A DNA stretch of 64,000 nt from Bradyrhizobiaceae bacterium (GTDB lineage: Bacteria > Bacteroidota > Ignavibacteria > Kapaibacteriales > Kapaibacteriaceae): assembly GCA_024103135.1 (NCBI GenBank), contig JAGFIZ010000051.1:1-64000 (forward strand). The letters are read 5' to 3'. This document shows positions 14,746 through 53,083 of the stretch, in pieces. The notes under the pieces were generated by a model. The model did not search any database. It worked only from the letters and a program-made list of their open reading frames with translations, and had not been told where the DNA came from. Position numbers and translations under genes: made by a program. Every line of letters starts with the position of its first letter. Position 1 is the first letter of the stretch.

Positions 14746-16193
14746 ACGCAGATATTCTTTGCTTCAGTAAAAAATCGCAGTGCTTCGGTCCCGCCTTCAC
14801 GTCCGACACCGCTTTGCTTCACACCACCAAATGGTGTCCGTAGATCGCGTACCAACCAGCAGTTAATCCATACGATGCCTGATTCCAGGCGGTGAGCAAC
14901 GCGATGGGCACGTTGCAACTGATCGGTCCACACACTTGCTGCCAAACCATACGGCGTGCTATTGGCCATGGCAATGGCTTGGTCTTCAGTGTCGAAGGGG
15001 ATCACCGTAGCAACAGGACCAAAGATCTCTTCCTGATTTACCCTGCAGTGCTCGGTAAGTCCGTCGATCAAGGTAGGGGCTACGAAATATCCATCACTAC
15101 ACCGACCTTCCACGCGTACTCGAGAGCCCCCTGCCAACACCGTTCCGCCTTCTGTCTTGGCGAGTTCGATGTAGGAGAGCACCTTTTCCATGTGTGCTTT
15201 GCTTACCAAAGCCCCCATGCGTGTTGACTCTTCGAGCGGATCGCCAACGGTGAACTTGTTGGTTTCGGCAACCAGTGCTTCGACGAAGGGCGTGTAGATG
15301 GATCGTTCAACGAGGATGCGCGAACCGCAGAGGCAGATCTCGCCTTGGTTGGTAAACGCTGCTCGTGCAACCTTACGCGCTGTTTCGGCGATTGGTGCGT
15401 CGGCAAAGACGATCGAAGCATTCTTGCCGCCCAATTCCAGCGAGAGCTTCTTGAACTGTGGAGCGGCGATTGATGCAATGGTGCGTCCGGTTGCCGTGCC
15501 ACCAGTAAACGAAATGGCCTTCACATCAGGATGTTCAATGATGGCTTGTCCGCATTCACTGCCAAGACCATGCACGACGTTCAGTACGCCAGGCGGCAAG
15601 CCAGCATCGGCACATAGCTTCGAAAACAGGAAGGCCGTAAAGGGTGTAAGCTCGCTGGGCTTTGCCACGACGCAATTGCCGGCGGCCAGGGCAGGGGCAA
15701 TCTTCCAGGTAAAGAGGTAGAGTGGCAGGTTCCAGGGCGAGATGCAGCCAACGACGCCGATGGGTGAACGTGTGGTGTAGTTCAGTGTGTGGACGTCCGT
15801 CTGATGCGTTGCCGTTTCCGAATGCAGAATCTCCGTGGCAAAGAAGGCCATGTTGGCTTCGGCACGGGGTATGTCCACGGTTGAGCTTTGACGCAGCGTC
15901 TTCCCATTGTCGTCCGATTCAGCGCGTGCTAACTCGTCGGCATGTTCCCGAATCTTTGCCGCTACGGCAAGCAGAACGTCCGACCGTTCCTTTGCCGACA
16001 GGGTCGACCACGAAGGAAAGGCCTGTTGGGCTGCCTGGACGGCTTCGTCGACATCTGCTCGAGTGCTCCTTGCTACCAACGCATAACGTTGGGCTGTTGC
16101 TGGGTTCTCTACGTCGAGCCATTCTGCCGAATGCGGATCACGGAAATGTCCGCCTATGTAATTGCGAATGTGAAGCACCGACAAAAATACCAT
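14736..16193 (-). CDS. Aldehyde dehydrogenase, 2-amino/hydroxymuconate-semialdehyde type
   Basis: A 485-residue NAD-dependent aldehyde dehydrogenase. The general base lies in 'LELGGKNASIVF' and the nucleophile in 'NQGEICLCGSRI'; the substrate-pocket signature 'INCWLVRDLRTPFGGVKQSG' is characteristic of the ALDH8A1/2-hydroxymuconate-semialdehyde branch. These enzymes oxidise 2-aminomuconate semialdehyde in tryptophan breakdown or its hydroxy analogue in catechol meta-cleavage. The overlapping RidA gene favours the amino route. Starts at 16193 and 16202 are both possible; residues from LHIRNYIGG onward align with the family, so I chose the nearer one. It is the first gene of the minus-strand chain and is divergent from the Xer gene. 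Confidence 0.9.
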   Translation of the reverse strand: MVFLSVLHIRNYIGGHFRDPHSAEWLDVENPATAQRYALVARSTRADVDEAVQAAQQAFPSWSTLSAKERSDVLLAVAAKIREHADELARAESDDNGKTLRQSSTVDIPRAEANMAFFATEILHSETATHQTDVHTLNYTTRSPIGVVGCISPWNLPLYLFTWKIAPALAAGNCVVAKPSELTPFTAFLFSKLCADAGLPPGVLNVVHGLGSECGQAIIEHPDVKAISFTGGTATGRTIASIAAPQFKKLSLELGGKNASIVFADAPIAETARKVARAAFTNQGEICLCGSRILVERSIYTPFVEALVAETNKFTVGDPLEESTRMGALVSKAHMEKVLSYIELAKTEGGTVLAGGSRVRVEGRCSDGYFVAPTLIDGLTEHCRVNQEEIFGPVATVIPFDTEDQAIAMANSTPYGLAASVWTDQLQRAHRVAHRLESGIVWINCWLVRDLRTPFGGVKQSGVGREGGTEALRFFTEAKNICVWL

Positions 16194-16245
16194 GCAATGC
16201 ATTCGTACAGACGCTATCTTATGGCAATCAACGCTATTCAGCAAC

Positions 16246-17193
16246 ATGCACGAGACGTTTCAGCATACGGTTGACGAGTTTTTGCGGACGCTTGACGTGG
16301 AGCGATCGGCAAGTTCACACACCATTGCTGCCTACCATGTGGCGTTGATGCAGTTTGCCGAGTACCTCGACGAAACGTATGGCACCGTACCAAGGGTCAC
16401 CGAGATTGCCGAAGCCGATGTGCGTCCATTCCTTGGATGGATGTTTGACAGGGGGCTAGGTAGACGCTCCATCAGACAGAAGCTCACGGCTGTTCGATCG
16501 ATGTTTGCATGGCTTGTGCGAACGGAGGTGCTCGACAAGAATCCAGCATCGGCCATTAGTTCACCGAAGCTTGAGAAGAAGCTCCCGTCATTCCTGCAGC
16601 AGACAGAAGCCCAGGATCTGCGGATGGTCTTCGACGTAACAACCGAGCCAGGTGCCCGCGACCATGCGCTATGTGAATTGCTCTACGGTAGTGGTCTGCG
16701 CATTAGCGAGGCCTTGCAGCTCTGCATTGCCGACGTGCAGCCACAGACAACGGTCATTCGGGTCCTTGGAAAACGAAACAAGCACCGCGTTGTGCCAGTT
16801 ACCGCCGAATCAGTCACGGCAATCGTGAATTACCTCTGCATGCGCTACAACGTTGGTACGGAGAAGTTCACCTCGCTCATCACCATGCATGGTTCCGAAC
16901 CGCTCTTCACCGGCAATCGTGGTGGCAAGCTCTCTTCTGCAGCAGCCTGGCGAATTGTGAACAGAGCACTAACACCAATTACAGAAGCGCGTAAGAAGAG
17001 TCCGCACGTCCTACGTCACTCCTTCGCCACCCACCTCCTGGACAACGGCGCCGACCTCAACGCTGTCAGCGAAATGCTGGGCCACAGCTCCCTGAGCACC
17101 ACTCAGGTGTACACACACGTGAGCGTGGAACGCCTGAAGGAGGCCTATAAGCAGGCACATCCTCGCACGGACGCTGGGGATGCGGAAGGATAA
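16246..17193 (+). CDS. Tyrosine recombinase XerC/XerD-like
   Basis: A 315-residue integrase-family recombinase. The N-terminal SAM-like core-binding domain ('VDEFLRTLDVERSASSHTIAAY') is followed by the catalytic domain. Catalytic residues are all visible: Arg in 'GSGLRISEAL', HxxR in 'HVLRHSFATHLL', His in 'MLGHSS' and the nucleophile Tyr in 'TQVYTH'. Length and architecture match chromosomal XerC/XerD, which resolve chromosome dimers at 28-bp dif sites. I chose the ATG at 16246 because the family starts a few residues before the core-binding domain. Three 28-bp palindromes lie directly downstream. Whether this is the XerC or the XerD partner cannot be told here. Confidence 0.92.
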   Translation: MHETFQHTVDEFLRTLDVERSASSHTIAAYHVALMQFAEYLDETYGTVPRVTEIAEADVRPFLGWMFDRGLGRRSIRQKLTAVRSMFAWLVRTEVLDKNPASAISSPKLEKKLPSFLQQTEAQDLRMVFDVTTEPGARDHALCELLYGSGLRISEALQLCIADVQPQTTVIRVLGKRNKHRVVPVTAESVTAIVNYLCMRYNVGTEKFTSLITMHGSEPLFTGNRGGKLSSAAAWRIVNRALTPITEARKKSPHVLRHSFATHLLDNGADLNAVSEMLGHSSLSTTQVYTHVSVERLKEAYKQAHPRTDAGDAEG

Positions 17194-17205
17194 AACAGAA
17201 AAAAC

Positions 17206-17233
17206 AGTGCCGGGGTGTGAACACCCCGGCACT
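17206..17233. repeat. 28-bp palindrome, copy 1
   Basis: A perfect inverted repeat: 13-nt arms AGTGCCGGGGTGT and ACACCCCGGCACT around the dinucleotide GA. It begins 12 bases after the xer stop codon. A-rich tracts lie on both sides, but there is no T-run after it on the plus strand, so it is not a standard intrinsic terminator for xer. It is the reverse complement of copy 3. Confidence 0.9.
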
Positions 17234-17320
17234 AAAACACAACGTTCTAAAAAAGCGCCCGTGGCAGGGCAGCTGTTAAGTTTTTGTCTTTCAATTGGTT
17301 AACAAGTTTAACTGCAGAAG

Positions 17321-17348
17321 AGTGCCGGGGTGTTCACTCCCCGGCACT
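17321..17348. repeat. 28-bp palindrome, copy 2 (one mismatch)
   Basis: Same element as copies 1 and 3 with centre TC, but the right arm reads ACTCCCCGGCACT, a single A-to-T change that leaves one unpaired position. It starts 115 bp after the start of copy 1 and is followed by AAAATTTAG. Confidence 0.9.
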
Positions 17349-17380
17349 AAAATTTAGTCTTTCCGCCAACTGCCATTTTC

Positions 17381-17408
17381 AGTGCCGGGGTGTTCACACC
17401 CCGGCACT
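17381..17408. repeat. 28-bp palindrome, copy 3
   Basis: A perfect inverted repeat with the same 13-nt arms as copy 1 and centre TC. It starts 60 bp after the start of copy 2 and lies 78 bp before the next gene. The 293-bp gap 17194-17486 holds these three elements and otherwise only A/T-rich sequence; I see no gene in it. Confidence 0.9.
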
Positions 17409-17486
17409 GACTTCCACTGACTCCACCACTGCGAAGTGCTCTCCGACGTAATTTCACGAATACCAATCATCACCGTGTAGACTGAA

Positions 17487-18452
17487 ATGATTCGCATTGC
17501 TGTTGTGGGGACGGGTCACCTTGGCTCGATACATGCAAGACTGTGGACGGAACAAGAGGGCGCCGAGCTCGTTGCTGTGGTCGATCCGCATGAGCAGCGT
17601 GGCAAGGATACTGCACAGCGGTATCACGCGACATGGTACCCAGCGCTTGAAGAGATGCCGGACGTCGATGCCGTTGTGATTGCAGCACCAACGGCCAGCC
17701 ACTTCGAGCTTGCAACGGCATGTTTGAAGCGTGGTATGCACACCTTTGTCGAAAAGCCTGTGACGGCTACCTACGCGCAAGCAGAGGAGCTTGGTCGGCT
17801 TGCACAGACGGTGGATTGTATTGTGCAGGTTGGTCATGTTGAACGCTTCAACCCTGCAATCATGGCATTGAGGGATTACCAGGTTGACCCAATGTTTATC
17901 GAGGGTCATCGGTTGTCGACCTTCAAACCGCGCGCGATCGACGTGAGCGTGGTGTACGACCTCATGATTCACGACATCGACTTGCTGCTCTGGCTCACGA
18001 GATCATCGGTCGTTGATATTGCCGCAACCGGCGTTGCCGTGCTAACCTCTACACCCGACATTGCCAATGCACGCATAACGTTCAGCAATGGATGTGTGGC
18101 CAACCTTACGGCTTCACGCATTAGCGCAAAGCCACTGCGCAAGCTCAGAATCTTTCAGAAGGAATGTTACCTTGGCATTGACCTCGCTGCTGGCTCGGTA
18201 GAGATGTTCAGGCTTATTGAGCAGGCCGCATTCAACAATGCTACCCAACAACCCGTGGGGGCAGTAACAACACAATTCGGCAATAAGATGATTGTGCTGG
18301 ACTCCCCTACCATCGAAGCCGTGAATGCCATCGCAGAGGAACAGCGTTCGTTCCTGCATAGTATCACCAACAACTCTGACGCTGCCGTAACCTTACAAGA
18401 GGGTGCAGAGGCAGTCCGGATTGCCGAGCTCATCGAGCAGGCAATGAACTGA
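17487..18452 (+). CDS. Gfo/Idh/MocA-family NAD(P)-dependent oxidoreductase
   Basis: A 321-residue sugar dehydrogenase-type protein. The N-terminal Rossmann motif GTGHLG lies at residues 8-13, followed by 'VDAVVIAAPTASHFELA' and the catalytic-region lysine in 'TFVEKPVT' near residue 93. The segment 'EGHRLSTFKPRAIDVSVV' then 'YDLMIHDIDLLLWL' closely resembles a subgroup that includes UDP-GlcNAc 3-dehydrogenase (GnnA) of lipid A biosynthesis. The partner aminotransferase and lpx genes are not nearby, so the substrate stays open. It is followed after a short gap by the DUF5723-like gene. Confidence 0.88.
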   Translation: MIRIAVVGTGHLGSIHARLWTEQEGAELVAVVDPHEQRGKDTAQRYHATWYPALEEMPDVDAVVIAAPTASHFELATACLKRGMHTFVEKPVTATYAQAEELGRLAQTVDCIVQVGHVERFNPAIMALRDYQVDPMFIEGHRLSTFKPRAIDVSVVYDLMIHDIDLLLWLTRSSVVDIAATGVAVLTSTPDIANARITFSNGCVANLTASRISAKPLRKLRIFQKECYLGIDLAAGSVEMFRLIEQAAFNNATQQPVGAVTTQFGNKMIVLDSPTIEAVNAIAEEQRSFLHSITNNSDAAVTLQEGAEAVRIAELIEQAMN

Positions 18453-48535: not shown

Positions 48536-48590
48536 GTCTGCCCCGATCGGTCGTTCACACTACACGGTGCGAACGTCATAGCAGAAAACG

Positions 48591-48622
48591 AAAAAGCCCG
48601 TCCACTTCTGGACGGGCTTTTT
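48591..48622. terminator. Bidirectional intrinsic terminator
   Basis: A perfect 9-bp stem (GCCCGTCCA / TGGACGGGC) with loop CTTC, extended by A5 on the left and T5 on the right. It ends the peroxiredoxin transcript on the plus strand and the small unknown gene on the minus strand. Confidence 0.92.
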
Positions 48623-48643
48623 GTTTTTCCCCGCAAGGCCTCT

Positions 48644-52810: not shown

Positions 52811-52954
52811 GGAAGGTGGGATTTCTTAACCGTTAGGTGAAATGGCTGGAATTGGCAAAAACTGACGAAAAACGGGTCGAATTATGCACAAATCGAGGGC
52901 AAATCCTAAAAAACGGTCAATTTTCCCCCAAATCGAGAAACTTGGTACAAAAAC

Positions 52955-52983
52955 AAAAAACCAGCCGTATTGGCTGGTTTTTT
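52955..52983. terminator. Intrinsic terminator
   Basis: Stem CCAGCC/GGCTGG with loop GTATT, extended by A6 on the left and T6 on the right. It lies 100 bp behind the OmpA-like gene and ends that minus-strand operon. The 287-bp gap 52797-53083 holds only this and the tRNA promoter. Confidence 0.88.
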
Positions 52984-53083
52984 GTGTTTTTTCGACATTC
53001 ATGAGGGTTCTCTGCATCGCAACCTCAGTACGGTCAACCCTAAGTTCGTTAACCGTGGTACTGGGTTCCCTACCTTACACCCC

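Follow-up and report, generated by a model that had tools for sequence, protein, structure and literature searches.

Three 28-bp palindromes lie just downstream of a gene for a Xer-type tyrosine recombinase in the window, by which we mean the whole stretch of 64,000 nucleotides analysed here, and the question raised by this locus is whether they are sites for that recombinase or members of a repeat family with a different partner. Comparison of sequences leads us to regard it as likely, with a probability of roughly 0.8, that the palindromes make up one copy of a non-autonomous REP/BIME-like element belonging to a RAYT (TnpAREP) encoded on contig C10 of the same genome, and that Xer plays no part. 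This explanation draws on hairpins that are dispersed and nearly private to the genome, on a cluster of them beside the RAYT gene, on the pairing of RAYT genes with private palindromes in related genomes, and on homology between copies that ends at the outer hairpins.

Architecture of the element in the window

The element has the order hairpin, long linker, hairpin, short linker, hairpin and spans 203 bp. Its parts and neighbours are as follows.

16192..17193, plus strand: gene for an XerC-like tyrosine recombinase; adjacent to the element but outside it
17203..17205, plus strand: AAC, the outer 5' foot; in line with the trend towards A[A/T]C at the ends of terminal hairpins, a candidate guide of putative function
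17206..17233, no strand: hairpin H1, perfect 28-bp palindrome around GA; forms the left end
17234..17320, plus strand: long linker L (forward), 87 nt; other clusters have homologous long linkers
17321..17348, no strand: hairpin H2, internal, with a single mismatched pair (GTGT..ACTC)
17349..17380, plus strand: short linker R, 32 nt
17381..17408, no strand: hairpin H3, perfect palindrome around TC; forms the right end
17409..17411, minus strand: outer foot of the right end, minus-strand GTC; fits A[A/T]C at the last two positions only
17487..18452, plus strand: 321-aa ORF, presumably a Gfo/Idh/MocA-type oxidoreductase; downstream neighbour, adjoining xer in four of five congeners

Recomputation reproduced the coordinates and arms given in the first-pass annotation for the palindromes at 17206, 17321 and 17381: in copies 1 and 3 all 13 arm positions pair, around centres of GA and TC, and either copy is the exact reverse complement of the other; copy 2 pairs at 12 of 13 positions, with a single mismatched pair. 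The arm core GTGCCGGGGTGT, allowing up to one mismatch, is matched eight times in the window, six of these at the element; shuffled versions of the window gave a mean of 0.31 matches and at most 3, and none of 100 shuffles reached eight.

The annotation was also right that no plus-strand T-run follows any of the three palindromes, and the test for an intrinsic terminator (a GC hairpin plus a T-run) accordingly gives 0 of 3 copies on the plus strand; it gives 1 of 3 on the minus strand, where TTTTTT follows copy 1, which is listed as terminator-like. A smaller terminator-like hairpin lies within the long linker (17271-17256, minus strand). Elsewhere in the window, inverted repeats at 48584-48629 and 52949-52989, rich in A at the left end and in T at the right, have the look of two-way terminators.

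A dispersed family within the genome

The genome (2.7 Mb in 137 contigs) holds 43 copies of the palindrome at up to 3 mismatches, and a reversed control pattern found no match in it. The copies fall into 12 clusters, two each on C5, C27 and C121 and one each on C10, C22, C61, C81, C101 and C116, the last being that of the window. The 31 gaps between hairpins are of two kinds, 18 short (32-33 nt) and 13 long (87-99 nt), which is the regular spacing with fixed linkers found in BIMEs. Ten units read H-L-H-R-H in a common orientation, the linkers of C27 and C121 lying in reverse; C81 is extended to H-L-H-R-H-L-H, and C5 and C121 carry additional short-linker modules. The linkers are homologous across these ten units, with columns of conserved sequence, among them CTAA, TCAA and GTTA, in a comparison that omits C22, which has no short linker, and C10, whose 99-nt long linker is divergent.

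The asymmetric 2-nt centre noted at the window locus is a property of the whole family: 34 of the 43 copies have TC there or the complementary GA, as if hairpins might flip in place. The internal hairpin H2 has a T/A mismatch in seven of ten units, in the opposite arm in the window, and among the 43 copies this mismatch is confined to the H2 position.

When the longest ORFs of at least 100 aa, which are not curated genes, are taken as neighbours, all 12 clusters are intergenic, flanked by co-directional genes in eight cases, by divergent ones in three and by convergent ones in one, with C61 counted as co-directional only if one 106-aa ORF is spurious. Five clusters (C5a, C22, C81, C121a and C121b) overlap a listed ORF, and these ORFs are taken as spurious or overlong, running into or through the hairpins. 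The family thus has the broad features of REPs, being palindromic, extragenic, within 20-40 bp and present in many copies, with 43 copies in 12 clusters; REPs usually exceed 100 copies (PMC2817692, in part). A different hairpin, CATCCCCGCTTTCGCGGGGATG, is found at most about 100 bp to the right of clusters C5a and C22 (L016 and L018) and may belong to a separate repeat family.

The neighbouring xer gene

The gene upstream of the palindromes encodes an XerC-like tyrosine recombinase: its product scores 121.6 bits against Phage_integrase (cut-off 27.1) and 303.9 bits against the XerC model, below the cut-off of 335.15. The first palindrome begins 12 nt past its stop codon. A dif site is a single site per replicon that is kept with Xer, and the xer adjacency, the 28-bp size and the asymmetric centre would all suit such a site. 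Homologues of the window xer are present in all five congeners at 59-63% identity. In the window 293 bp separate xer from the oxidoreductase-like gene, against 91 bp, without a palindrome, between xer stop and oxidoreductase start in G005; the matches to the two genes are 66, 67 and 69 nt apart in G004, G001 and G003, where they end a few residues inside the gene ends. The xer locus of G002 reaches the contig edge. As all four readable congeners keep the gene pair without room for the element, the element sits between otherwise close neighbours.

The dif-like tie to Xer suggested in the first-pass annotation does not survive these results, nor the genome search that it had named as a check, in which scattered copies would speak against Xer. 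The family has 43 dispersed copies, 11 of its 12 clusters lie away from the window xer, and the palindromes of related genomes (see below) accompany RAYT genes. We therefore reject a dif site, its chances being close to nil, and the adjacency to xer is most likely a coincidence.

A RAYT gene beside one cluster

The REP-like alternative mentioned in the annotation gained ground. A single gene in the genome exceeds the Y1_Tnp cut-off of Pfam, with 43.8 bits against 23, and it lies on C10, 88 nt from an upstream cluster of three hairpins. Its product has an HFH motif (H60-F61-H62) and Y120---N124P125, and H60, H62, Y120, N124 and P125 are invariant in all ten aligned homologues, which represent 10 of 14 RAYT match rows, L044 (in-frame stop), L050 and L053 (a split gene) and L052 (partial) being omitted. 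A Y1_Tnp domain with HUH and Y---NP motifs is the RAYT signature (PMC6006769, in part). Against NCBIfam the only match at E ≤0.001 is NF047646 (REP_Tyr_transpos), at 74.6 bits under a cut-off of 80. The C10 protein as a single sequence matched no solved structure at 0.001; a profile of the ten homologues placed TnpArep 4er8 first (E 1.1e-8), with other transposases at 0.0014 or worse. We call the C10 gene a RAYT on the strength of the HUH and Y---NP motifs and this best solved relative.

The residues discussed for reading the GTAG guide are W94, Q95, E100, H101 and R104 (PMC6006769, in part), and the C10 protein has F, Q, C, I and H at these positions, so that four of five differ. These differences fit the absence of GTAG from the family without proving the point, since GTAG subclasses themselves differ at E100 and H101 and W94 has no clear role (PMC6006769, in part). 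Hairpins are found only upstream of the C10 gene, and not on both sides of it as in a REPtron. A second and weaker Y1_Tnp-like protein of 148 aa, with an HIH motif and 21.3 bits against the cut-off of 23, is encoded at C113:3831-4052 (L040:1297-1743).

RAYT genes and private palindromes in related genomes

Of the 23 genomes of the family, 10 have RAYT homologues, counting our own. The 13 loci from relatives represent 12 distinct places, L050 and L053 being one split gene, and a strong palindrome (arms of at least 10 pairs) with a CCGGG core lies within 400 bp of nine of the 13 (8 of 12 distinct). At the remaining four places (L042, L049, L051 and L054) no palindrome with arms of at least 10 and one mismatch was found. 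Three relatives have palindrome types of their own, each first spotted beside the RAYT of its genome, with 6 copies at home in G003, 44 in G009 and 27/28 in G002; among the nine genomes searched, each type was absent from the other eight. In G002 palindromes lie on both sides of the RAYT gene. The RAYT beside the G003 type (L044, G003:C3) has an in-frame TAA, and the palindrome next to it is perfect; G003 has two further RAYT homologues on C2.

The window palindrome is similarly restricted: of 59 other genomes, 58 gave no match and the remaining one a single match with 3 mismatches, and no exact match was found in genome_contigs and viral_contigs, from which the genome's own or near records are possibly left out. 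In G009, GTAG stands directly before the stem at 4 of 31 complete hairpin ends and AAG at 22, so that GTAG is not the rule there, yet present. The G009 palindrome is concentrated on the short contigs C65 and C69 (8 and 6 copies listed), the latter with a RAYT gene and with all best matches on one strand.

Wider sampling took the best 80 of at least 554 RAYT-related matches in genome_contigs, a set that includes G002 and G003 again. With arms of at least 11 pairs, a palindrome lies beside the gene at 37 of these best 80 (on the upstream side in 30, on the downstream side in 29 and on both in 22); equal-size distant windows gave 3 of 68 and 4 of 76. The other 43 have no strong palindrome.

Unit ends, sister clusters and a candidate foot

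Sister clusters on the same contig are alike inside, with 198/205 identical positions (97%) in C27a/b, 249/265 (94%) in C5a/b and 218/267 (82%) in C121a/b, and their 60-nt flanks align like unrelated DNA. Homology thus stops at the outer hairpins, to within a few bases, so that the unit is hairpin-bounded. The pairs on C27, C5 and C121 are 5.3, 3.1 and 2.1 kb apart from start to start (5.1, 2.8 and 1.7 kb from end to start), and both members of each pair have the same orientation, a layout that would suit short-range single-strand transposition. Between units, mean identity is 93-97% in hairpins, 56-59% in long linkers and 61% in short linkers. Conserved hairpins between diverged linkers imply that most copies are old, or that the hairpins are separately maintained, rather than that the copies are recent jumps.

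Of the hairpin ends read into the element, 22 of 24 terminal and 26 of 62 internal ones have C before AGTGCC; for the foot A[A/T]C the counts are 16 of 24 and 19 of 62. From this correlation only, A[A/T]C is put forward as a weak candidate for a guide-like foot. The four-letter form AA[A/T]C separates poorly (8 of 24 terminal and 14 of 62 internal ends) and was dropped. A GTAG or CGTC tag was rejected, being absent from the terminal feet: GT[AG]G stands at the foot of none of 24 terminal and none of 62 internal ends (anywhere in 12 nt, at 1 terminal and 4 internal ends), and CGTC was found within 12 nt of none of the 24 terminal ends.

Proposed mechanism and alternative explanations

We regard the family as RAYT-associated and REP-like, in BIME-like arrays, and it probably works like a REP system. 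The RAYT would recognise the hairpin as a single strand folded on itself, possibly together with a short foot on its 5' side (A[A/T]C being the weak candidate), would nick at the hairpin through its HUH/Tyr site, and would move or copy hairpin-bounded units into intergenic DNA. Several observations weigh against it: the lack of a GTAG tag, the NF047646 score of 74.6 under 80, the one-sided hairpins on C10, the in-frame TAA in the RAYT beside the G003 palindrome, a copy number of 43 where REPs usually exceed 100, and RAYT loci without palindromes (4 of 12 distinct places in relatives, 43 of the best 80 of at least 554 matches). The contrast in identity between hairpins and linkers speaks against recent jumping. 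A more specific and rather speculative idea, which we hold to be doubtful, is that this RAYT lineage has swapped the GTAG guide for an A[A/T]C foot and may move composite units over short distances and on one strand, as in single-strand transposition at the replication fork. If true, comparing species that each have private palindromes would let one follow how guide codes evolve in RAYTs.

Among the alternatives, it is conceivable though unlikely that the hairpins act for the host in RNA or in DNA, for example as terminators, mRNA stabilisers, or gyrase or nucleoid-protein sites, with the RAYT incidental. The much greater conservation of hairpins than of linkers, the minus-strand terminator-like form of window copy 1 and the location of the clusters between genes (on the longest-ORF reading) would all agree with such a role. 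Termination is nevertheless not a common one, with three of 12 clusters between divergent genes, and we reject a general terminator role on this count and on the lack of a plus-strand T-run at the window copies. A conserved RNA was likewise rejected, since compensatory changes were found at 0 of 40 predicted pairs and the nine weak Rfam matches were all below threshold; single-sequence folds are dominated by pairing between hairpins. A host role also leaves unexplained why private families should lie beside the RAYTs of relatives.

Less probable still is that nothing jumped and that gene conversion homogenised neighbouring clusters, with the hairpins as seeds; three sister pairs within 5.3 kb would allow for this, but it does not account for how 12 clusters sharing one linker arrangement arose at sites that are unrelated. 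A CRISPR-like array, suggested by a 28-bp repeat and a 32-nt spacer, was rejected, as the linkers are mutually homologous and some are 87-99 nt long.

Relation to known systems

Association with the C10 RAYT would place the family beside systems already described. Like the GTAG REPs of REPtrons, it consists of short, GC-rich intergenic palindromes that are clustered, genome-specific and located beside a RAYT with HUH and Y---NP motifs; unlike them it has no GT[AG]G, is near-perfectly symmetric, numbers only 43 copies and accompanies a RAYT that differs at four of five GTAG-contact residues. Judged by its sequence features, the family belongs with the REP/RAYT repeats that carry no GTAG, the tag of canonical REPs. 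In BIMEs, the mosaic elements of E. coli, hairpins similarly alternate with fixed-length linkers, as in the C81 array; the likeness is one of architecture, and the symmetry of the present hairpins means that alternating orientation cannot be read from them.

RAYT genes may be flanked by GTAG repeats or by unrelated TIRs, and some TIRs form repeat families in dimers or clusters (PMC3733652, in part). RAYT subclass 2.6, mostly from Bacteroidetes, and class 3 are described with atypical structures without GT[AG]G (PMC6006769, in part). These TIR-type (TIRYT) and subclass 2.6/class 3 repeats come close to the present family in that palindromes unrelated to GTAG flank a RAYT and occur as dimers or clusters elsewhere (PMC3733652 and PMC6006769, both in part), a likeness by description rather than by placement in a tree; the candidate A[A/T]C foot sets the present family apart. 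CGTC-tagged repeats without a transposase are reported from Chlorobi and Bacteroidetes (PMC3733652, in part), and as of 2010 RAYTs with abundant REPs were described from gammaproteobacteria only (PMC2817692, in part). The present lineage is not mentioned in the parts of PMC3733652 and PMC6006769 consulted, and no paper turned up when the names Kapabacteria or Ignavibacteria were paired with terms for REPs or RAYTs.

The pairing of RAYT and palindrome is thus documented here in a little-studied group of MAGs. What may be mildly new is the candidate A[A/T]C foot, a RAYT with four of the five GTAG-contact residues changed, and same-orientation sisters 1.7-5.1 kb apart. The genome and its three relatives, each with a private palindrome family, form a natural series for studying how RAYTs choose hairpins and whether they still move them.

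Further afield, in four records titled cyanobacteria (L071, L072, L074 and L081; arms of at least 10 pairs), near-perfect palindromes, mostly starting AGATC, flank relatives of the RAYT on both sides.
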